This document shows, one piece after another, positions 4,557 through 44,083 of a DNA stretch of 56,849 nucleotides; positions within the stretch are counted from its first letter, which is position 1; the number at the start of each line of letters is the position of its first letter. Origin of the DNA: a virus; the IMG/VR virus record IMGVR_UViG_3300019871_000001, positions 1 through 56,849 of that record; one strand, given 5' to 3'. The notes beneath the pieces were generated by a model that was given only the letters and a program-made list of their open reading frames with translations, was not told the DNA's origin and ran no database searches. Made by a program: the position numbers and the translations under genes.

Positions 4557-4631
4557 ATGTCCTTGGTGTAATGGGAGCATAGCGGTCTCCAAAACCGTTA
4601 GGTGTGGGTTCGAATCCCGCAGGGCGTGCCA
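4557..4631 (+). tRNA. tRNA-Trp (CCA)
   Basis: Cloverleaf: acceptor ATGTCCT/AGGGCGT with wobble pairs, anticodon stem GCGGT/ACCGT around loop CTCCAAA, T-arm GTGGG-TTCGAAT-CCCGC. The 3' CCA is encoded in DNA. Confidence 0.9.
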
Positions 4632-4633
4632 AC

Positions 4634-4663
4634 TTGACAACTACATCCGACATGTGGTACACT
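4634..4663 (+). promoter_or_regulatory. Promoter between tRNA-Trp and tRNA-Glu
   Basis: TTGACA 4634-4639, 18-bp spacer, TACACT 4658-4663. It begins 3 nt after tRNA-Trp and would drive the next tRNAs. Confidence 0.6.
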
Positions 4664-4728
4664 CCGTATGTCGAGTTTGAAGGTCTGTAAGGGCGTACAT
4701 GTTCGTCCTGTAAAACTAACATGTTGGT

Positions 4729-4800
4729 GGTCCCATAGTATAATGGTGAGTACGCTAGGTTCTCAACCTATGGGTCGGGGTTCAATTCCCCGTGGGACTG
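4729..4800 (+). tRNA. tRNA-Glu (CTC)
   Basis: Acceptor GGTCCCA/TGGGACT, anticodon loop TTCTCAA, T-arm CGGGG-TTCAATT-CCCCG. CCA is not fully encoded. Between this gene and tRNA-Asp (4801-4917) I see only a GCGCTTT/AAAGCGC hairpin and no gene. Confidence 0.88.
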
Positions 4801-4917
4801 CATTTCGCGCTTTAAAGCACCCCAACAAAGCGCGTGGTTGTTTCGCCGTTTCACAGCTGGAAGAGATGGCGTGGTTTTGCTAGGGTTCGCCATATACATC
4901 GAATGGAATGGCGCGGT

Positions 4918-4989
4918 GCTCTCATCGTATAACGGTGATTACGTGGCCTTGTCAAGGCTAATATCGGAGTTCAACTCTCCGTGGGAGCG
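4918..4989 (+). tRNA. tRNA-Asp (GTC)
   Basis: Acceptor GCTCTCA/TGGGAGC, anticodon stem TGGCC/GGCTA with loop TTGTCAA, T-arm CGGAG-TTCAACT-CTCCG, discriminator G. Confidence 0.9.
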
Positions 4990-5062
4990 CTCACTGTACA
5001 CGGCCGTCCCGTCGCATTCGTGCGGAAGTTCGCTACCTCAGGTCGGTCGTGTACAGCGTTGA

Positions 5063-5134
5063 TGCGCTATGGTGTAAAGGTAACATGCAGGTCTCATAAG
5101 CCTGAAGCTCTCAGTTCGATTCTGAGTGGCGCTA
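5063..5134 (+). tRNA. tRNA-Met (CAT)
   Basis: Anticodon stem CAGGT/GCCTG with loop CTCATAA, T-arm CTCAG-TTCGATT-CTGAG, acceptor GCGCTA/TGGCGC plus a T-T mismatch at the terminal pair. The anticodon stem lacks the three G-C pairs of an initiator. A CAT anticodon could also be modified to read AUA (Ile), which sequence cannot exclude. Confidence 0.82.
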
Positions 5135-5183
5135 CTTGCTTGGGTGCGTACGTACCTGAGAGAACAAAATATAGGAGCGAGAC

Positions 5184-5720
5184 GTGGCAACGTTCACACA
5201 GCGTCCATCAACATTTTACGCAGTGCAGTGGGATGGAACCAACATTGTTGACTTCCAGAACACATTTCCTTGGATGACTTTTATTGCTAATGTTGATGGT
5301 ACGTTGGATACGGGATCGTTTCATCTCCCGTTGACGTGGTGGATGTATGCTGCTGGCAATGTTGCTAGTGATGTCACGTTCCAGAGCATGTTCCAAAGCC
5401 TCGCAGGCGGGGAAGGGTATGCTTTTGCTTCACAGCTTGACATTCCTGAGCGCAGGGTGAAGAATGTTCCTCTCCCAGCGTTTGGGTTGTTGAACCTAAA
5501 GCAAACTCTTACATGCACGTTTGACACTCCAATGCCAAGCGCTGCGTATGAGGTTGCGATTTGCTTCGAAGGTAACGCTTCGTTGGTAGGGGCCCTAAAT
5601 CCACCTATGGTGATTGCAGGGTCGAAGACTTCCACAGGTTTTCAGTTTGCTGTGTCGTCTCTCGTGATTTTGGCGTTCGGGTCGATTAATGCGCGCTGCT
5701 CTGTGGTGGAAACTCCATAA
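5184..5720 (+). CDS. Probable virion-associated protein, 178 aa
   Basis: GTG start 7 nt after AGGAGC. The N-terminus (RPSTFYAVQWDGTN) resembles a widespread small phage domain also seen in the gene at 40774. The remainder is beta-rich and hydrophobic, with a C-terminal pattern like the terminal domains of receptor-binding or decoration proteins. It sits alone between tRNA genes in the structural half. Function is inferred from context only. Confidence 0.6.
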   Translation: MATFTQRPSTFYAVQWDGTNIVDFQNTFPWMTFIANVDGTLDTGSFHLPLTWWMYAAGNVASDVTFQSMFQSLAGGEGYAFASQLDIPERRVKNVPLPAFGLLNLKQTLTCTFDTPMPSAAYEVAICFEGNASLVGALNPPMVIAGSKTSTGFQFAVSSLVILAFGSINARCSVVETP

Positions 5721-5730
5721 CTAAATCTAT

Positions 5731-5802
5731 TGGCGTGTGGTGTAACGGTAACACGAGACCCTGTTAAGGTCCAAGCTCTAGGTTCGAATCCTGGCATGTC
5801 AG
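5731..5802 (+). tRNA. tRNA-Asn (GTT)
   Basis: Acceptor TGGCGTG/CATGTCA fully paired with wobbles, anticodon loop CTGTTAA, T-arm CTAGG-TTCGAAT-CCTGG. Confidence 0.9.
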
Positions 5803-5803
5803 C

Positions 5804-5878
5804 GTTGTGCGTAGCTCAATGGTAGAGCACTGGACTGTGACTCCGGTGATGAGGGTTCGATTCCCTTCGTGCACCCCA
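5804..5878 (+). tRNA. tRNA-His (GTG)
   Basis: Anticodon stem CTGGA/TCCGG, loop CTGTGAC. A G is encoded at position -1 opposite C73, the identity element for histidine, and CCA is encoded. The 1-72 pair is a T-C mismatch. It abuts tRNA-Ile with no spacer. Confidence 0.88.
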
Positions 5879-5953
5879 CGCGTATGAGCTAGTCTGGTTG
5901 ACTAAGGGAACCTGATAAGTTCCTTGCGCAAGGTTCGATCCCTTGATACGCGA
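5879..5953 (+). tRNA. tRNA-Ile (GAT)
   Basis: Acceptor CGCGTAT/ATACGCG, anticodon stem GGAAC/GTTCC with loop CTGATAA, T-arm CAAGG-TTCGATC-CCTTG. It begins on the base after the encoded CCA of tRNA-His. Confidence 0.9.
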
Positions 5954-5958
5954 CTGGT

Positions 5959-6018
5959 GACAATAGCGCGCAACGATAGGCCAGTAAAAGAGCCGACAAT
6001 AGCGGGTGACGATAGCCT
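5959..6018 (+). repeat. Two imperfect 24-bp direct repeats between tRNAs
   Basis: GACAATAGCGCGCAACGATA at 5959 and GACAATAGCGGGTGACGATA at 5995, 36 nt apart. They fill the spacer between tRNA-Ile and tRNA-Val. Purpose unknown; they could be remnants of a duplicated tRNA spacer or processing signals. Confidence 0.6.
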
Positions 6019-6020
6019 GC

Positions 6021-6091
6021 GCTTGGTTAGTATAATGGAAGTGCATCTGGCCTACACCCAGATGGCGGGGGTTCGATTCCCTCACCGAGCA
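6021..6091 (+). tRNA. tRNA-Val (TAC)
   Basis: Acceptor GCTTGGT/ACCGAGC, anticodon stem TCTGG/CCAGA with loop CCTACAC, T-arm GGGGG-TTCGATT-CCCTC. The discriminator A is followed by one C and then the ATG of the Acb2-like gene. Confidence 0.92.
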
Positions 6092-6092
6092 C

Positions 6093-6317
6093 ATGGATAA
6101 CCAACACAAGAAGATCGACGGCTACCGTGATTTCGATCAGGAGACCGTTGACGCAATTAATTACATCAAGTCACTAGAGCGCGATGTTGCGTCTTATTGG
6201 AACATCGTTGGCAATGGTGACGTCGATAAGCGTGAACTGGCATTGGCTAAGACACACTTTGAAGATGCATTCATGCACTTCGTTAAGGCTGTTGCTAAGC
6301 CTGTGACGCCATGGTAA
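6093..6317 (+). CDS. acb2-like: Acb2/Tad1-family cyclic-nucleotide sponge (anti-CBASS)
   Basis: 74 aa. The pattern HKKIDGYRDFDQETVDAINYIK, then ELALAKTHFEDAFMHFVKAVAKP matches the helical hairpin family of Acb2/Tad1 phage proteins (xGYRxLxxxEIxxxNxIK ... AxTHxQxGFMxLxRAVAxP), which bind and sequester cyclic di- and trinucleotides from CBASS and related defences. It is one short two-helix domain, the usual family size. The ATG lies 2 nt after the tRNA-Val discriminator with no Shine-Dalgarno, so tRNA 3' processing would yield a leaderless mRNA. It sits between tRNA-Val and tRNA-Ala. I matched the family from memory, not by search. Confidence 0.82.
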   Translation: MDNQHKKIDGYRDFDQETVDAINYIKSLERDVASYWNIVGNGDVDKRELALAKTHFEDAFMHFVKAVAKPVTPW

Positions 6318-6327
6318 GATGTTTTAT

Positions 6328-6400
6328 GGGGATTTAGCTCATCAGGTAGAGCACTTGCCTTGCAAGCAAGAGGCGTCGGGTTCGAGTCCCGAATTCTCCA
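6328..6400 (+). tRNA. tRNA-Ala (TGC)
   Basis: Acceptor GGGGATT/ATTCTCC, anticodon stem CTTGC/GCAAG with loop CTTGCAA, T-arm TCGGG-TTCGAGT-CCCGA, discriminator A. Confidence 0.92.
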
Positions 6401-6410
6401 CGTTACACAA

Positions 6411-6484
6411 CAGGCTGTAGCTCAGTTTGGTAGAGTAGTCGCTTTGGAAGCGAGCGGTCGGAGGTTCAAATCCTCCCAGCCTGA
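6411..6484 (+). tRNA. tRNA-Pro (TGG)
   Basis: Acceptor CAGGCTG/CAGCCTG, anticodon loop TTTGGAA on stem GTCGC/GCGAG (outer pair mismatched), T-arm GGAGG-TTCAAAT-CCTCC. Last tRNA of the rightward array. Confidence 0.9.
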
Positions 6485-6498
6485 CTTTAGGAACACAA

Positions 6499-23702: not shown

Positions 23703-23756
23703 CCCCCAAATGAAACAACCCCTCGCACAGTCGGTTAGACCATACGAGGGGAAGCG

Positions 23757-23830
23757 AGCCACTGACAGGAATCGAACCCGCGTACTCCATCTTACAAGGA
23801 TGGCGCTCAGCCAACATGAGCAACAGAGGC
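23757..23830 (-). tRNA. tRNA-Thr (TGT)
   Basis: Anticodon stem CCATC/GATGG with loop CTTGTAA, T-arm GCGGG-TTCGATT-CCTGT, acceptor GCCTCTG/CAGTGGC with one T-T mismatch. The 87-nt gap to tRNA-Lys (23831-23917) holds no convincing gene. Confidence 0.88.
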
Positions 23831-23917
23831 ATACCGACTTTATGGCAGTCGTCGCCACCCAAATCCATGGGCGTCCCGTTCATGCTAAGGATTTTACGGG
23901 CAACTATGTTTTTAACG

Positions 23918-23989
23918 TGGGCCCACACAGCATCGAACTGTGATCTTCCGGGTAAGAGCCGGAGGTTTTACCAATTATACTATAGGCCC
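23918..23989 (-). tRNA. tRNA-Lys (CTT)
   Basis: Acceptor GGGCCTA/TGGGCCC, anticodon stem TCCGG/CCGGA with loop CTCTTAC, T-arm CACAG-TTCGATG-CTGTG. It lies 4 nt downstream of an HNH gene. Confidence 0.9.
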
Positions 23990-23993
23990 AATG

Positions 23994-24353
23994 TCACCTG
24001 TAACGCTTTTGATACTCTCTCTTTAGTACAGCGCACCTATCACAGTAGCAGTTCTTCTTACCACTGATACCCTCGCCGTGATCCACGCTCTGTTCGGTTC
24101 CTGATTTCTTAGCGTGGCATGACTTGCATCGTAGCACACACTTCTCAAGTTCCGCAACTACCTTACTGCGCTTATGAGTAATGCATTTTCCTACGTCGAA
24201 AGATTTAGTTGTTCGATCAACATGGTCAAATTCTAGCTGAGATACGGTACCACAGTCTACACACTTCCCGCCAAGCATGTCTACGTATTCTGCGCGTAGC
24301 CTGTGGTACCGCTTACTCATGTATGCTTTCATGTACTCGTTTGAATTGCTCAT
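23994..24353 (-). CDS. HNH endonuclease, leaderless
   Basis: 119 aa: GKCVDCG, LEFDHVDRTTK, CVLRCKSCHAKKSG form a His-Asn-His-type core with zinc pairs, followed by a second Cys cluster (NCYCDRC). The start ATG is 6 nt after a TAGTAT box (24360-24365) without a ribosome site. Placed between tRNA genes, so probably a homing nuclease. Confidence 0.82.
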   Translation of the reverse strand: MSNSNEYMKAYMSKRYHRLRAEYVDMLGGKCVDCGTVSQLEFDHVDRTTKSFDVGKCITHKRSKVVAELEKCVLRCKSCHAKKSGTEQSVDHGEGISGKKNCYCDRCAVLKREYQKRYR

Positions 24354-24359
24354 GAAAGC

Positions 24360-24365
24360 ATACTA
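24360..24365 (-). promoter_or_regulatory. -10 box for HNH gene (leaderless)
   Basis: Minus-strand ATG-TAGTAT, then 6 nt, then the start codon. No clear -35. Confidence 0.45.
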
Positions 24366-24417
24366 CATTAAGAGTTCTAACTACGAAGTTAAGCGCCTCA
24401 CGTATGAAGCGCCGAGT

Positions 24418-24654
24418 TTAGTATCCGAACAACTCTTCCATGCGTGCGGAAATTTGAACTTCGTGCCTAACATCTTCCGAATCTACATAGTAGATGTGAA
24501 CTTCATGCACGTCATACGAGCAAGTTTCACATCCGCCCGTGTTGTATGACTCTTCGTAGTAAGATGTGACACGCACCACATCTTCAATCTCATGTTCCTC
24601 ACGCAAGAACTCCGCTAGGAACTCATGGAAGCGATCCTTCCACGTCTCTGCCAT
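24418..24654 (-). CDS. Acidic hypothetical protein, 78 aa
   Basis: GGAAGGGG precedes the ATG. Rich in Glu, Asp, Tyr, with CETC in the middle. Not recognised. Transcribed with the surrounding tRNAs. Confidence 0.6.
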   Translation of the reverse strand: MAETWKDRFHEFLAEFLREEHEIEDVVRVTSYYEESYNTGGCETCSYDVHEVHIYYVDSEDVRHEVQISARMEELFGY

Positions 24655-24675
24655 CTTGTCAACCCCTTCCTTGAG

Positions 24676-24746
24676 AAAGTTGCCCCGGAGTTGAACCGGG
24701 CTAAGTAGATTTGCAGTCTACCACATAACCGCTCTGACAGCAACTC
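24676..24746 (-). tRNA. tRNA-Cys (GCA)
   Basis: Acceptor GAGTTGC/GCAACTT, anticodon stem GTAGA/TCTAC with loop CTGCAAA, T-arm CCCGG-TTCAACT-CCGGG, discriminator T as expected for Cys. Confidence 0.9.
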
Positions 24747-24750
24747 ACGG

Positions 24751-24835
24751 CGGGGACAGGAGGATTCGAACCTCCGTCGCTGTTACACGATTCACTTTAG
24801 CAAAGTGATGCTATCGGCCGCTCAGCCATATCCCC
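24751..24835 (-). tRNA. tRNA-Ser (GCT)
   Basis: Long variable arm, acceptor GGGGATA/TGTCCCC, anticodon stem TCACT/AGTGA with loop TTGCTAA, T-arm GGAGG-TTCGAAT-CCTCC, discriminator G. Confidence 0.92.
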
Positions 24836-24841
24836 ATACTA

Positions 24842-25183
24842 TTATTTAACAACCCACTTACCATTCGCGTCTTTCACTTCCGTGCGAATGTTACGTGGAT
24901 CGTTGATTGAACGTTCAACTTCTGCACTTAGCAAATCGTCTCGTCCAACACGCTTCTTAATGTACAGTTGAAACTCAGGACTGTCAACCATACGCCTGAA
25001 CGCAAGCTTCTTGTTTTGCAACTGCGAACGCTCGTCTCTAGCTTCACCACGCGCCCCGCTCTCGTGGTGAATTACACGAACGCCCGTATCACGTTTGTTC
25101 TGATTCTGTCCACCCTTGCCGCCTGAGCGGAATGTTTGGACTTCACAATCATCAATCTTGACTGAGAACGCTAGCTCGCTCAC
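24842..25183 (-). CDS. Release-factor-like GGQ domain protein
   Basis: 113 aa. FRSGGKGGQNQNKRDTGVRV is the RF-1/ArfB signature, whose GGQ loop hydrolyses peptidyl-tRNA on the ribosome. Only this catalytic domain is present; codon-recognition domains are absent, so it resembles ArfB/Pth4-type rescue factors. GTG start after GGGAGA. It lies inside the tRNA array and overlaps a 33-aa frame upstream. Confidence 0.88.
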   Translation of the reverse strand: MSELAFSVKIDDCEVQTFRSGGKGGQNQNKRDTGVRVIHHESGARGEARDERSQLQNKKLAFRRMVDSPEFQLYIKKRVGRDDLLSAEVERSINDPRNIRTEVKDANGKWVVK

Positions 25184-25253
25184 GGGCTGTCTCCCAATCT
25201 AATTCGTTGGCGTCTTCTACAATGACCAATAGATAATCTTCAATGTTTTTCAT
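25152..25253 (-). CDS. Acidic micropeptide, 33 aa, directly after tRNA-Ser
   Basis: ATG 25253 is 2 nt after the tRNA-Ser(TGA) discriminator base and has no ribosome site; sequence MKNIEDYLLVIVEDANELDW looks protein-like. tRNA maturation would leave a leaderless message, as for the Acb2-like gene. Overlaps the GGQ gene by 32 nt. Confidence 0.5.
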   Translation of the reverse strand: MKNIEDYLLVIVEDANELDWETARERASVLSQD

Positions 25254-25254
25254 G

Positions 25255-25335
25255 CGGAACCCTGAGGAATCGAACCCCACGCTTGACGCGCCCTACGGTT
25301 TTCAAGACCGCTTGCCTCCATAGGCGGAAGACTCC
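25255..25335 (-). tRNA. tRNA-Ser (TGA)
   Basis: Anticodon stem GCGGT/ACCGT with loop CTTGAAA, extended variable arm, T-arm TGGGG-TTCGATT-CCTCA, acceptor GGAGTCT/GGGTTCC, discriminator G. Confidence 0.88.
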
Positions 25336-25342
25336 ATACTGC

Positions 25343-25417
25343 ACATAGTGGTAGGATTCGAACCTACGAATCGGTACCCTCCTCGGGCCCGTCGTGTGCC
25401 TCTCGACTCACATAGTG
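25343..25417 (-). pseudogene. Degenerate tRNA-like element
   Basis: Canonical T-arm (GTAGG-TTCGAAT-CCTAC) but the acceptor ends are a direct repeat (CACTATG at both ends) pairing at only four of seven positions, and the anticodon loop (CGAGGAG) has G at position 33 where U is invariant. Nominal anticodon AGG. Probably a decayed tRNA. Confidence 0.55.
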
Positions 25418-25422
25418 CATTG

Positions 25423-25494
25423 CTCTCCCGTCTGGATTCGAACCAAAATCAGGCAGGTTCAGAGCCTGCTATCTTACCATTAGAACACAGGAGA
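25423..25494 (-). tRNA. tRNA-Gln (CTG)
   Basis: Acceptor TCTCCTG/CGGGAGA, anticodon stem GCAGG/CCTGC with loop CTCTGAA, T-arm TTTGG-TTCGAAT-CCAGA. The following 139 nt (25495-25633) hold no gene I can support. Confidence 0.9.
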
Positions 25495-25633
25495 TTAACG
25501 CGGTCCACGACTCCGCACGGCAATCGTATGTATGCTTACCACATCATGCTGAACGTGGCCACAGTGCCGAGTGTTACTTGCGCGTAACTTTCGTGTATAA
25601 TATTGCGTCATGCAGCCCCGGCGGTGCACATGG

Positions 25634-25708
25634 TACCACTGAGAGGATTCGAACCTCCGACGCCTAGCTTCGTAGGCTAGCGCTCTATCCAGACTGAGCT
25701 ACAGCGGC
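25634..25708 (-). tRNA. tRNA-Arg (ACG)
   Basis: Anticodon stem CTAGC/GCTAG with loop CTACGAA, T-arm GGAGG-TTCGAAT-CCTCT, acceptor GCCGCTG/CAGTGGT. A34 would need deamination to inosine by a host enzyme to read CGN. Confidence 0.9.
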
Positions 25709-25715
25709 ATGTGAT

Positions 25716-25850
25716 TTACTTCTTGATCTTCTTCAGCTTCGCCTTGGCGTGTACTCCACACAACCATAGCGTCTTCTTACCTGTAATAACAAGCTGTGTA
25801 GTAGCAATGTTACCACAGAAATTCGTGTCACACTTCTTATCTGACAACAT
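25716..25850 (-). CDS. Small zinc-finger-like protein, 44 aa
   Basis: AGGAGG before ATG. CDTNFCGN and CGVHA give a C-x4-C ... C-x2-H pattern in a basic protein; likely zinc-binding. Sits between the two tRNA-Arg genes. Confidence 0.65.
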   Translation of the reverse strand: MLSDKKCDTNFCGNIATTQLVITGKKTLWLCGVHAKAKLKKIKK

Positions 25851-25877
25851 TCCTCCTCTTGTTATTAAATTGTTACG

Positions 25878-25949
25878 TACCCTAGGCAGGATTCGAACCT
25901 GCGACCAAACGCTTAGGAGGCGCTAACTCTTCCGCTGAGCTACAAGGGT
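25878..25949 (-). tRNA. tRNA-Arg (CCT)
   Basis: Anticodon stem AGCGC/GCGTT with loop CTCCTAA, T-arm GCAGG-TTCGAAT-CCTGC, acceptor ACCCTTG/CTAGGGT with one T-T mismatch. Confidence 0.88.
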
Positions 25950-26003
25950 ATGTATCGCTCCCACAGCATATGCCCACGAAGGGCGCAATGTACAGCGATA
26001 ACG

Positions 26004-26076
26004 TGCGGTATGAGGGACTCGAACCCTCACATTCAGTTTGGAAGACTGACATGCTAGCCATTAACATCAATACCAC
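26004..26076 (-). tRNA. tRNA-Gly (TCC)
   Basis: Acceptor GTGGTAT/ATACCGC, anticodon stem TCAGT/ACTGA with loop CTTCCAA, T-arm GAGGG-TTCGAGT-CCCTC. Confidence 0.92.
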
Positions 26077-26119
26077 ATGTGCAGAGCCTCACCACCATAT
26101 AGGACCAGAGGATGCAACG

Positions 26120-26199
26120 TCTCAGCACTAGGAATTGAACCTAGTCGCCCAAAGGCTACGGTGTTACAGACCGCTGGGCAGCCATCGCCCACTACTGAG
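26120..26199 (-). tRNA. tRNA-Tyr (GTA)
   Basis: Anticodon stem GCGGT/ACCGT with loop CTGTAAC, variable arm with GCC/GGC-type pairing, T-arm CTAGG-TTCAATT-CCTAG, acceptor CTCAGTA/TGCTGAG. Confidence 0.9.
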
Positions 26200-26209
26200 T
26201 TGTAAAACG

Positions 26210-26281
26210 TCTTCAAAGACGGGATCGAACCGCCGCATCTGGTACTTCACACCAGCGCTCTACCAACTGAGCTATTTGAAG
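26210..26281 (-). tRNA. tRNA-Phe (GAA)
   Basis: Acceptor CTTCAAA/TTTGAAG, anticodon stem CTGGT/ACCAG with loop GTGAAGT, T-arm GGCGG-TTCGATC-CCGTC. Confidence 0.9.
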
Positions 26282-26337
26282 TTACGACAGTTTTGTTTTG
26301 GCGTGACACCCATTGAAGCGTTTCCTAGGACACTTTC

Positions 26338-26367
26338 AATCTAGCACACCGTTCAGGCGTCTGTCAA
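26338..26367 (-). promoter_or_regulatory. Promoter inside the leftward tRNA array
   Basis: Minus strand: TTGACA, 18-bp spacer, TAGATT. Placed between tRNA-Leu(CAA) and tRNA-Phe, so it would boost the downstream tRNAs. Confidence 0.65.
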
Positions 26368-26374
26368 CTGAGCG

Positions 26375-26459
26375 TACACAAGGTGGGACTCGAACCCACA
26401 CCCACTTCCGTGGACCGCATTTTGAGTGCGGCGCGTCTGCCAATTCCAGCCACTCGTGC
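26375..26459 (-). tRNA. tRNA-Leu (CAA)
   Basis: Long variable arm, anticodon stem CCGCA/TGCGG with loop CTCAAAA, T-arm GTGGG-TTCGAGT-CCCAC, acceptor GCACGAG/CTTGTGT. Confidence 0.9.
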
Positions 26460-26507
26460 ATAACACCTTTAGCTGTGCACATTTGTGGTGACAGCGCTTC
26501 GGTGTAG

Positions 26508-26580
26508 TGAGCCCCGGGAGATTCGAACTCCCACTGTACAGGGTCTAAGCCTGTTTCCTCTGCCGTTGGGATAGAGGCCC
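26508..26580 (-). tRNA. tRNA-Leu (TAG)
   Basis: Anticodon stem ACAGG/CCTGT with loop CTTAGAC, T-arm GGGAG-TTCGAAT-CTCCC, acceptor GGGCCTC/GGGGCTC. The variable arm is short, unusual for a leucine tRNA. Confidence 0.85.
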
Positions 26581-39228: not shown

Positions 39229-40335
39229 GTGAAGTTGCACGAACTGTTTGACATGGATTTGTTTTATGAGATGCGTCAGGCAGGGTTTGTCAAGGCACAA
39301 CGACACCCTACGTTCCCTGACGTTCTCGTGATTCTCAACTACACCGCAAAGGCACAACAGAACTATCATTGGAATGACGTTACGGAACAATGTCGTGGCC
39401 TGATTTACAACCCCATGACACTTGACGTTGTAGCCCTCCCGTTCCGTAAGTTCTACAACTACAACGAAGCACAGGCACCTACAATCGCAGGTGATGAAGA
39501 GATCACAGCATTCGATAAGATGGATGGCTCGTTGGGTATCGTTTACATGGCACCTGATGAGGTGTTACGTGTCGCTACGCGGGGTAGTTTCACGAGTGAC
39601 CAGGCGCTTTGGGCGACGCAATGGTTGTGGGACAACATTGGGAAGACATGGCAGGAGGCGCACGGGAATGGATATGAGTGGCGTCCTTACATGACGGACA
39701 TGTTTGAGATCATTTACCCTGACAATCGTATTGTTGTAGGGTATGGAGGCTACGAAGGTTTGGTTTATATTGGGTCACGAAGTATTGAGTCCGGACAGTT
39801 CGCTCTCGATGAGGGAGCTTGGGAAGGACGTAAAGCAGAACGACTTTATGAGGGGAAGTTCAGCGGCCTGTTCAACCTGCCCGATCGTGCTAACGCTGAA
39901 GGCTTCGTGGTCGTCACAGATGATGAGCGCAGGGTCAAGGTGAAGTATGATGAGTACGTGAGGATGCACCGTATCGTGTCGCACCTATCGGAGAAGTATG
40001 TGTGGGAATACTTAGGTGGCCCTTCGCCTTTACGGGCAGACGAACTGGCGCGTGACATCCCTGAGGAACACGCTGAGTGGGTGCGCGACGTGTCCAATGA
40101 TTTGTTTGGGAAGTACATGACGCACGCTATGTACATCAACGAAGTTACGCAGCGCATTGCGAAGATGACAACGCGTAAGGAGAAGGCCATCAGCATTAAG
40201 GATGAGCCTAATTGGGTTCGAGCATCTATCTTCGCTAACCTTGACAAGAAGGACTACGTTGGGATAGTGTGGAAGAGCATCAAGCCAACGTCGAATGATG
40301 ATGAAGAGGGAGATGTTCATGGCGAAGTTGATTAA
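39229..40335 (+). CDS. RNA ligase, T4 Rnl1-like
   Basis: 368 aa, GTG after AAGGAGG. Motif I KMDGSLGI (Lys near residue 98 is adenylated), ATRGSF (motif Ia), MFEIIYPDNRIVV (motif III), EGFVVVTDDERRVKVKY (motifs IV-V). ATP-dependent ligase that reseals RNA such as cut anticodon loops. Confidence 0.88.
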   Translation: MKLHELFDMDLFYEMRQAGFVKAQRHPTFPDVLVILNYTAKAQQNYHWNDVTEQCRGLIYNPMTLDVVALPFRKFYNYNEAQAPTIAGDEEITAFDKMDGSLGIVYMAPDEVLRVATRGSFTSDQALWATQWLWDNIGKTWQEAHGNGYEWRPYMTDMFEIIYPDNRIVVGYGGYEGLVYIGSRSIESGQFALDEGAWEGRKAERLYEGKFSGLFNLPDRANAEGFVVVTDDERRVKVKYDEYVRMHRIVSHLSEKYVWEYLGGPSPLRADELARDIPEEHAEWVRDVSNDLFGKYMTHAMYINEVTQRIAKMTTRKEKAISIKDEPNWVRASIFANLDKKDYVGIVWKSIKPTSNDDEEGDVHGEVD

Positions 40336-41071: not shown

Positions 41072-41317
41072 GTGGCTAAGCGCTCACAAACTGAACCGAT
41101 GTATATCACCGTAAGTGCGGAGTCGTTGTTCACGTTGGTTCAGGACCTGAAACGTGCACGCGAGAAGCGTCTAGGGCATTATTACTATGACGTATCGTTC
41201 TCTATCCTTTCAGAGGATGACGATGTGGTTGTGGTATTGTCAGGTGATTGGGTTGACGCGCTTAGCGAGAGGGTTGAGCGCGACGCGTTGCATAGGAGGT
41301 ACAGGCGTAGTGGGTAA
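41072..41317 (+). CDS. Hypothetical protein, 81 aa
   Basis: GTG after AGGAGG. YITVSAESLFTLVQDLKRAR, basic tail. Overlaps the kinase gene start by 8 nt. Confidence 0.6.
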   Translation: MAKRSQTEPMYITVSAESLFTLVQDLKRAREKRLGHYYYDVSFSILSEDDDVVVVLSGDWVDALSERVERDALHRRYRRSG

Positions 41318-42269
41318 CTTAGTAATCTTTAGGGGACTTCCTGCTTCCGGGAAGAATTACATGGCGGAACGTATGGCGGAGCAGCATGGTGGGCGCATCG
41401 TTGATAGGGACATGGTGCGCCACATGCTCTACCAAACCTACTGGAACCCTGAGCGCATCGATGAGAAGGTGGTGACGGAGACGCAAAGCCTGTTGATTGA
41501 TGCGGGGTTGCGTTACGGGGAGAACGTGTACGTCCCTGACATGAACCTACGCAATCAGTATGTGACAAGGTTGATTGCACAGGCGAAGGCACTTAACAGC
41601 ACGTGGGCAATCGTAGATCTCACTGATGTTGATCTTGATGTGTGCTTGGCGCGTAACGAAGGGCTTGCACGTCGATTGAAGGGTAAGACAGTTGAGCGTG
41701 ATGTCATTCGTGGTTTGTATGAGCGTTACATCAAGGGGCGCGCCCACCCCCTTCCCGTTACATTGTCAGAGAGTAAGCGTAACGGCACGAAGCGTGAAGT
41801 GTACGTGCCTGACGTCACAAAACCTGACGCTATCATCGTTGACATTGATGGTACTGTGGCACGTATGAAGGATCGTGGTCCTTTTGATGAGCACTTGGTG
41901 TCGCAGGATGAATTGATTGAGCCTGTTGCTGAGATGGTGAAGAGCGCTATGAATTCGGATGTTGTAGTATTGTTCATGTCAGGACGCACGGACGCGTGCT
42001 TTGATGCTACCGCCAGTTGGTTGACTGAGAAGATGCCTTGGCTTAATGATTACGATGACGTTTTCATGGCATGTAAGTGGGACTTGCACATGCGACGTAG
42101 CGTCGAAGATCGAGGGCGTCCCGACGATGATGTGAAGTATGATTTGTTCATGCGCGAGGTTGCGCCACACTATAATGTGCTGTACACTATCGATGACAGG
42201 GATAAGGTAGTGAAGATGTGGAGGGAAGTGGGGTTGACATGCGCACAGGTAGCTTATGGGGACTTCTGA
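41310..42269 (+). CDS. pnkP: Polynucleotide kinase/3'-phosphatase
   Basis: 319 aa from GTG 41310 (AGGAGG upstream). P-loop FRGLPASGKN at residues 7-16 and a C-terminal HAD phosphatase IVDIDGTVARMKDRGPFDE near 176, with LFMSGRTDACFDAT. This is the T4 Pnkp layout: it heals cut RNA ends (5' kinase, 3' phosphatase) for an RNA ligase. Confidence 0.9.
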   Translation: MGNLVIFRGLPASGKNYMAERMAEQHGGRIVDRDMVRHMLYQTYWNPERIDEKVVTETQSLLIDAGLRYGENVYVPDMNLRNQYVTRLIAQAKALNSTWAIVDLTDVDLDVCLARNEGLARRLKGKTVERDVIRGLYERYIKGRAHPLPVTLSESKRNGTKREVYVPDVTKPDAIIVDIDGTVARMKDRGPFDEHLVSQDELIEPVAEMVKSAMNSDVVVLFMSGRTDACFDATASWLTEKMPWLNDYDDVFMACKWDLHMRRSVEDRGRPDDDVKYDLFMREVAPHYNVLYTIDDRDKVVKMWREVGLTCAQVAYGDF

Positions 42270-43194: not shown

Positions 43195-43395
43195 ATGTCA
43201 GAGGTAAAAGCGACACAGATCAACGGCACAGCATTTGTCACACTCGATTCACTACGTGAAATTTATTTCGAGGAGTCACGTAAATCGGCAGGATATGACA
43301 CTGAACTGTTGGGCGCTATCATCGAAACCGTAGATGAGATTGCTCAGGAACAAGCGTGGGGTAAGAAGGTACGTCGCGCCTGGAATCGTTGGTAA
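43195..43395 (+). CDS. Hypothetical protein, 66 aa
   Basis: GAGGAGG before ATG. Helical, acidic then Trp/Arg end. First gene under the 43119 promoter. Confidence 0.6.
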   Translation: MSEVKATQINGTAFVTLDSLREIYFEESRKSAGYDTELLGAIIETVDEIAQEQAWGKKVRRAWNRW

Positions 43396-43411
43396 AGAGA
43401 GGAGCAACGAT

Positions 43412-44083
43412 ATGACGTTTGAGTTTCGTAACTATGGTAAGATCCCGCGCTGGGTTAATGAACATGTGTGGGTGTCGGAAAAGATTGACGGAAGTAACAG
43501 CTGTGTTGTAATTGAGAAGCTTACCACGGCAGAGGTTACGTATTTTTGGGGCATTCAAGCTCCCGACGCGGTGAAGTTCTTGTATTTTAAGGACGAAGCA
43601 TACGTAGTGCGTGCTCAGTCACGTAACAAGTTCATCACGCCCGGTAAGGGCAAGGATAACTTTGGCTTTGCACAGTACGTGCTTGACAATGCTGATGCGT
43701 TGGTGAGTGTGCTTGGTGTGGGCTACCACTATGGGGAATACTATGGTAGTGGCATTCAGTCAGGGTATGGGTTGCTGACCGGGGAGAAGCACTTCGCCTT
43801 GTTCCCGACGCATCGCGTCTCTCGACTCAGCGACAATTTCGAACAGATCATGAGCATTCCTGGGCTTGAGATCGCCCCTGAGCTGTACGAAGGTCCGTTC
43901 GGTGAGGGTAATTGCATTGAGGACTGCCTGAACCTCTTGCGTGAGAATGGGAGCTTCGCACACTCCGCGCGAGGGTTTGCGCGACCCGAGGGTGTTGTGG
44001 TACAGTTCAAGTTGTCAGGTGCGCGGTACAAGGCTTTTGTAGTGGAGGATGGACCTAAGACTTTGAAGGAAGGGCGTGTATAA
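43412..44083 (+). CDS. Second RNA ligase, Rnl2-like
   Basis: 223 aa from ATG 43412 (GAGAGGAG upstream; an earlier in-frame start overlaps the previous gene). VSEKIDGSNSCVVI gives motif I (Lys near residue 24), VVRAQSRNKFI motif Ia-like, and RPEGVVVQFKLSG motifs IV-V. Resembles the RNA_ligase/Rnl2 family. A second ligase type besides the Rnl1-like enzyme at 39229. Confidence 0.8.
   Translation: MTFEFRNYGKIPRWVNEHVWVSEKIDGSNSCVVIEKLTTAEVTYFWGIQAPDAVKFLYFKDEAYVVRAQSRNKFITPGKGKDNFGFAQYVLDNADALVSVLGVGYHYGEYYGSGIQSGYGLLTGEKHFALFPTHRVSRLSDNFEQIMSIPGLEIAPELYEGPFGEGNCIEDCLNLLRENGSFAHSARGFARPEGVVVQFKLSGARYKAFVVEDGPKTLKEGRV

Follow-up and report, generated by a model that had tools for sequence, protein, structure and literature searches.

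The closest described systems are the Acb2 proteins of the Pseudomonas phages PaMx33, PaMx41, PaMx43, and PaP2 (structures 8h2j, 8h2x, and 8ixz). Phage PaMx43 is naturally anti-CBASS and PaMx41 gains anti-CBASS activity with a longer gp24, as reviewed previously (PMC12043709), and Acb2 homologues bind cyclic trinucleotides more tightly than cyclic dinucleotides, with a varied range (PMC12043709). The family also includes Vs.4, the Acb2 of phage T4 (7uq2). Among actinobacteriophages, a precedent is provided by Microbacterium phage Statler (cluster EG), for which a putative Acb2 and one tRNA, and no tRNA array, are described (PMC13348362; compared here by description only). In jumbo phages (Erwinia phage SNUABM_47, Cronobacter phage GAP32, and relatives), acb2 also lies among tRNA genes, with other genes on both sides of it and no tRNA abutment.

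The window analysed here, which is the whole of a 56.8-kb virus record (56,849 nucleotides), codes for an Acb2 that shares with the Pseudomonas phage proteins a small standalone form, the MDNQHKKI-GYRDL block, and a predicted helical hairpin, and that aligns with them over the full length at about 38% identity. It differs from them in its length (74 aa versus 93 aa), in its shorter arms, in three substitutions (L14F, G59A, and R65K), and in coming from a phage of an actinobacteriophage portal lineage. With T4 Vs.4 it has the predicted fold in common, whereas the N-terminus differs. The acb2 gene of PaMx43 has an annotated RBS and belongs to an ordinary operon; that of the window abuts tRNA-Val, unlike the jumbo-phage genes, and is without a Shine-Dalgarno (SD) site.

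A standalone Acb2 between two tRNA genes

Within a 57-kb record, the genome carries 23 tRNAs, split between two arrays of opposite orientation and jointly covering all 20 amino acids. The first array, as resolved by ARAGORN, has the order Trp, Glu, Asp, Met, Asn, His, Ile, Val, acb2, Ala, Pro. The features of the locus and of the second array are as follows.

4557 to 6485, + strand: first tRNA array, ten tRNAs, between the portal and VG15-like head genes
6021 to 6092, + strand: tRNA-Val(UAC), found by ARAGORN, with discriminator A6091, C74 at 6092, and no encoded CCA
6091 to 6096, + strand: junction A73-C74-ATGG, where ACATGG is identical in the window and its relatives L002, L003, L004, and L084
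6093 to 6317, + strand: acb2, standalone Acb2 type (PF24729, PDB profile matches, AlphaFold2 fold)
6328 to 6401, + strand: tRNA-Ala(UGC), found by ARAGORN, starting 10 nt past the acb2 stop
23756 to 26580, - strand: second tRNA array, 13 tRNAs (ARAGORN)

The acb2 ORF begins with an ATG that is the first possible start in frame and at which the conserved Acb2 N-terminus is encoded, and it specifies a protein of 74 aa (MDNQHKKIDGYRDFDQETVDAINYIKSLERDVASYWNIVGNGDVDKRELALAKTHFEDAFMHFVKAVAKPVTPW). This product matched the Pfam family PF24729 (Acb2_Tad1_hairpin) across model positions 1-58 of 58 with 55.4 bits (E 7e-15; curated cut-off, 27 bits), and PaMx43 Acb2 also scores on this family. Homologues were identified in 230 phage records and about 300 IMG/VR stretches. 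The best phage matches by tblastn were Pseudomonas phage and prophage proteins (52% identity), and the Acb2 proteins of PaMx43 and PaMx41 were matched at E 7e-8 and E 5e-6, respectively. A search of solved structures with the product recovered Acb2 (8h2j, E 6e-9; 8ixz, E 3e-8), and a family-profile search of the PDB recovered both Acb2 (8h2j, E 2e-20) and T4 Vs.4 (7uq2, E 4e-7). Matches to NCBIfam MerR (E 0.06) and Pfam DDE_2 (E 0.1) were dismissed as noise, and PADLOC returned no match for acb2 or for the RNA-repair proteins of the genome.

All eleven residues that do not vary among 64 aligned, diverse Acb2 sequences (M1, N3, Q4, H5, I8, G10, Y11, R12, N23, K26, and A68) are kept in the 74-aa protein, and the three substitutions named above fall at near-invariant positions. 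The N-terminal MDNQHKKI-GYRD, N23, K26, and the C-terminal A68-P70 are intact, and the blocks at the two termini, which frame the Acb2 pocket for cyclic dinucleotides, retain their invariant residues. Y11 and K26, the contact residues named for Acb2, count here as invariant family residues and not as a test of ligand contact. Between the window and L002, acb2 has no non-synonymous difference and a pS of 0.18 at synonymous sites (dN/dS against L003 and L084 was unusable, with synonymous sites saturated); as judged from these sequences, the gene is under purifying selection. Given the PF24729 match, the homologues, and the synonymous-only divergence to L002, acb2 is not a chance ORF.

AlphaFold2 predicted two antiparallel helices (residues 16-40 and 46-68; mean pLDDT 86.9). 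Residues 1-10 of the model are uncertain (pLDDT 58), and the short N-terminal helix of solved Acb2 is not resolved. When the model was compared to the PDB with Foldseek, the eight best chains were all Acb2 or Vs.4, with 8h2j, 8h2x, and 7uq2 in the lead. VIA-align gave a Z of 8.2 for 8h2j_A (rmsd 2.2 over 72 residues, 38% identity) and of 7.8 for T4 Vs.4 7uq2 (rmsd 2.6 over 72 residues, about 24% identity); a Z of 8 is by itself weak for a helical hairpin, but the Acb2 and Vs.4 rows top the list and agree with the sequence homology. The protein is predicted to fold as an Acb2 helical hairpin with shortened arms, the hairpin being about 20 residues shorter than that of 8h2j, and because of these arms and the three substitutions its ligand range could differ from that of solved Acb2.

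In Tad1, the gcADPR pocket requires an N-terminal beta domain ahead of two C-terminal helices. The 74-aa protein has no strands, and a Tad1 identity was rejected because the N-terminal beta domain is absent. We conclude that the protein is a genuine Acb2 of the standalone type. The original prediction had called a 74-aa ORF at 6093-6317, between tRNA-Val and tRNA-Ala, and had assigned it to the Acb2/Tad1 hairpin family. The ORF was exact in coordinates and description, ARAGORN confirmed its two neighbors, and the family assignment held for profile, PDB matches, residues, and fold and can be narrowed to standalone Acb2. Profile and Foldseek searches, proposed at the time as a check, recovered the Acb2 family and fold, and the antiparallel hairpin that was expected is present in the predicted protomer.

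Distribution of acb2 and its junction with tRNA-Val

The portal of the virus resembles actinobacteriophage portals, mainly those of Mycobacterium, Cutibacterium, and Gordonia phages, which makes an actinobacterial host likely; a search of 84,980 bacterial and archaeal genomes with the portal profile found no host. The identity of acb2 to its counterparts in IMG/VR relatives is 100% for L002 and L082, about 80% for L003 and L004, and 61% for L084. Three further relatives (L083, L085, and L086) were found by their portals. The order tRNA-Val, acb2, tRNA-Ala is kept in L002, L003, L004, and L084 and is shared by three diverged viruses (window/L002, L003/L004, and L084). In L086, a gap of 110 nt separates tRNA-Val from tRNA-Ala and acb2 is absent. 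L083 has neither acb2 nor tRNA-Ala, and what follows its tRNA-Val, 'ACATGGAAATTTGA', has the appearance of a leftover acb2 start; the L085 stretch stops short of the site. Since L086 and L083 are without it, acb2 is an accessory gene, yet one that among the sequences compared is kept across diverged viruses, and the earlier description of it as spliced in is correct insofar as it denotes accessory cargo. A general linkage of acb2 to tRNAs was unsupported, with a tRNA within 2 kb at 28 of 176 acb2 loci, mostly from three lineages.

In every copy, the acb2 ATG is placed one base (C74) past the tRNA-Val discriminator. This spacing remained fixed while the tRNA and the protein diverged, whereas the flanking spacers vary (4-77 nt between tRNA-Ile and tRNA-Val, and 10-44 nt between acb2 and tRNA-Ala). 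No SD site was detected before acb2: the anti-SD duplex is -1.8 kcal/mol, compared to a median of -2.5 for a background of random ATGs and of -7.0 for the best starts of 66 large ORFs (possibly including spurious ones). The corresponding value in L084 is -4.5 kcal/mol and derives from Gs of the acceptor stem. Likewise, no TAnnnT -10 element of the kind expected for a leaderless promoter was found 6-13 nt before the ATG, a stretch made up of tRNA acceptor and T arm. The start codon of acb2 is at the presumed 3' processing site of the tRNA and without an SD.

Similar junctions were counted over offsets 0-12 in 14 actinophage regions, comprising the window, its relatives, and nine regions from other actinophages. 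At the C74 offset, 7 of 212 non-CCA tRNAs are followed by an ATG that opens an ORF of at least 33 aa, compared to a mean of 0.75 for each other offset; these statistics are partly post hoc, and only three CDS families are left once acb2 and the window are removed. ACATGG is read at six of the seven junctions. Three are acb2, one is a 33-aa ORF after a tRNA-Ser of the window, and the rest are annotated CDSs in Streptomyces phage Gilson (after tRNA-Phe, a case also found in Comrade, and after tRNA-Arg) and Gordonia phage Octobien14 (after tRNA-Leu).

25152 to 25253, - strand: 33-aa ORF, with its ATG one base (C74) past the tRNA-Ser(UGA) discriminator; overlaps the RF-1-type gene from upstream

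An unselected viral sample revealed no excess of start codons one base after tRNAs (3/213), and the difference between actinophages and this sample was not significant (Fisher p 0.22). Among tRNA-confirmed IMG/VR cases selected by pattern, ORFs of at least 30 aa were present at 41 of 61 C74-ATGG junctions versus 17 of 59 one base on (p 2e-5). After related cases were removed, the counts were 27/42 versus 15/47 (p 0.002 at a length of at least 30 aa; p 0.04 at 40 aa). These results are suggestive of C74-ATGG junctions forming a wider class of gene starts.

Other genes were also observed in or next to tRNA arrays. A protein type of 178-190 aa, the window copy of which (5184-5720) has no Pfam match, has apparent relatives in L002 (3452-4015), L084 (2676-3218), and L085 (4633-5205), and occupies different array slots among the relatives, as if it were mobile cargo. 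A cysteine-rich, HNH-looking protein is encoded inside the second array of the window (23994-24353, - strand), and a similar one in L451 (near 1448-1783) begins directly at a tRNA 3' end; neither has a Pfam match. A conserved family of putative membrane proteins (111-112 aa) starts immediately at the 3' end of tRNA-Ile in the viral contigs L386, L389, L409, L424, L428, and L456.

Proposed expression and function of acb2

Expression of acb2 together with the tRNAs had been anticipated in the original prediction, and the location of the gene makes co-transcription with the array very likely. C74 is encoded in 157 of 159 non-CCA tRNA genes of actinophage arrays (L087 and L215-L222) and in 19 of 20 in the window, versus 145 of 214 in the unselected viral sample (its frequency at host genome loci was discarded because those loci had been chosen with a pattern requiring the C). 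In the actinobacterium Cutibacterium (Propionibacterium) acnes, mapping placed the 3' cleavage of CCA-encoding tRNAs between the two Cs, no tRNase Z was identified, action of the same enzyme on CCA-less tRNAs is a suggestion of the authors only, and leaderless mRNAs are common (PMC3848588). In mycobacteria, a transcript needs no more than an ATG or GTG at its 5' end to be translated (PMC4633059). Based on the encoded C74 and on these two precedents, we predict that cleavage after C74 yields an acb2 mRNA starting with AUG. Such cleavage would leave a tRNA-Val ending in C, which could be completed by the CCA-adding enzyme, and would at the same time free an acb2 mRNA that begins exactly at its AUG and is translated as a leaderless message; 5' processing of tRNA-Ala would set the 3' end of this mRNA.

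Because acb2 starts directly at the tRNA end, trimming of tRNA-Val may thus also release the acb2 mRNA, a proposal that we advance tentatively and hold to be a little short of an even chance. It resembles the tRNA punctuation of animal mitochondria in that tRNA excision would give mRNAs at or next to AUG; unlike the mitochondrial case, it is hypothetical and concerns the tRNA operon of a phage, processed by bacterial machinery. With more reserve, we raise the possibility that phage tRNA operons use 3' processing after an encoded C74 as an expression device for small cargo genes, acb2 included, whereby exactly leaderless mRNAs would be released and the output of a counter-defence protein would be tied to phage tRNA production. 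A literature search covering few subscription journals found no description of phage genes released by tRNA processing. The Acb2 protein family is already known; the arrangement for acb2 expression is potentially new.

With respect to function, Acb2 protomers would, as in solved family members, form a hexamer with sites for cyclic dinucleotides between paired protomers and for cyclic trinucleotides at the trimer ends. By soaking up signal nucleotides, the protein would keep CBASS effectors, and possibly cA3-dependent type III CRISPR effectors, inactive. Our analysis points to such sponge function as likely for the 74-aa Acb2. The explanation in which Acb2 is an anti-CBASS nucleotide sponge that is carried as accessory cargo in a tRNA operon appears to us probable.

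The same sponge could be produced with the leader being irrelevant, either by translation of a tRNA-mRNA transcript that stays unprocessed or by way of a promoter within tRNA-Val; the abutment would then be a trace of genome compaction or of an earlier insertion at the 3' end of the tRNA. In keeping with this alternative, which we view as somewhat less likely than not, neighboring phage tRNAs in these arrays are often only 0-2 nt apart, and the non-redundant IMG/VR excess of ORFs at C74-ATGG is significant but modest. However, the TAnnnT element that an internal promoter might be expected to show is lacking, the tRNA-Val/acb2 spacing is exactly conserved while the flanking spacers drift, and the tRNA-to-CDS gaps read in annotated actinophage arrays are absent (0 nt) or reach at least 9 nt. 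Furthermore, a 30S subunit would have difficulty reaching an AUG that stacks on a folded acceptor stem.

Other alternatives concern the protein rather than the leader. It is unlikely, in our estimation, that the Acb2 fold is here tuned mainly to a TIR-made signal or to the cyclic trinucleotides used by CBASS or type III CRISPR and not to cGAMP-type dinucleotides: the conserved residues are kept in the termini, which are described as building the dinucleotide pocket, and the beta domain needed for the Tad1 gcADPR pocket is absent, even though homologues favor trinucleotides over dinucleotides with a varied range (PMC12043709), the arms are shortened, and three near-invariant residues are changed. 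An Acb2-fold protein that has decayed or been repurposed, and so has no sponge activity, is very improbable. L083 appears to keep only the short remnant after tRNA-Val, so acb2 can be lost, but against such decay in the window stand purifying selection, intact invariant residues, and retention in three diverged viruses. An anti-CBASS sponge carried in the tRNA operon is the reading that we prefer.

RNA repair genes and implications

Outside of the first array, the genome codes for proteins of RNA repair and a release-factor-like protein.

39229 to 40335, + strand: T4 RNA-ligase-1-like protein (PF09511, E 1e-11)
41187 to 42269, + strand: Pnkp-like polynucleotide kinase/phosphatase (PF25109 HAD_PNKP, E 2e-44; AAA_33)
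43334 to 44083, + strand: second RNA ligase (PF09414, E 7e-9)
24842 to 25183, - strand: RF-1-domain (GGQ) protein in the second tRNA array (PF00472, E 1e-16)

The two RNA ligases and the Pnkp-like enzyme make up a T4-like RNA repair kit. In T4, Pnkp and Rnl1 repair cleaved tRNA. An RNA ligase and a kinase are also found near the tRNA arrays of Gilson, Comrade, and Octobien14, and the annotation of Mycobacterium phage EniyanLRS likewise places RF-1 genes close to tRNA arrays. Evasion of anticodon nucleases has been put forward as a role for phage tRNAs (PMC10264068). Given the set of 23 tRNAs, the two RNA ligases, the Pnkp-like enzyme, and the RF-1-type factor, gene content makes tRNA repair by this phage plausible. 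The suggestion that the acb2 locus also counters tRNA-targeting defences is accordingly reasonable for the genome, in which the tRNA set for 20 amino acids, the repair genes, and the RF-1-type protein lend it indirect support; these features do not stem from the position of acb2 in the array, and no functional link to acb2 emerged.

The Acb2 of the window adds a further phage lineage to a known family of immune-evasion proteins, and the genome provides a clear case in which RNA-repair enzymes and tRNAs for all 20 amino acids accompany cyclic-nucleotide counter-defence. If tRNA trimming releases leaderless mRNAs, small counter-defence genes could be expressed without a promoter or an SD of their own, which would suit hosts that translate leaderless messages well. 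If true, this would also flag an overlooked class of small genes that start at tRNA 3' ends.
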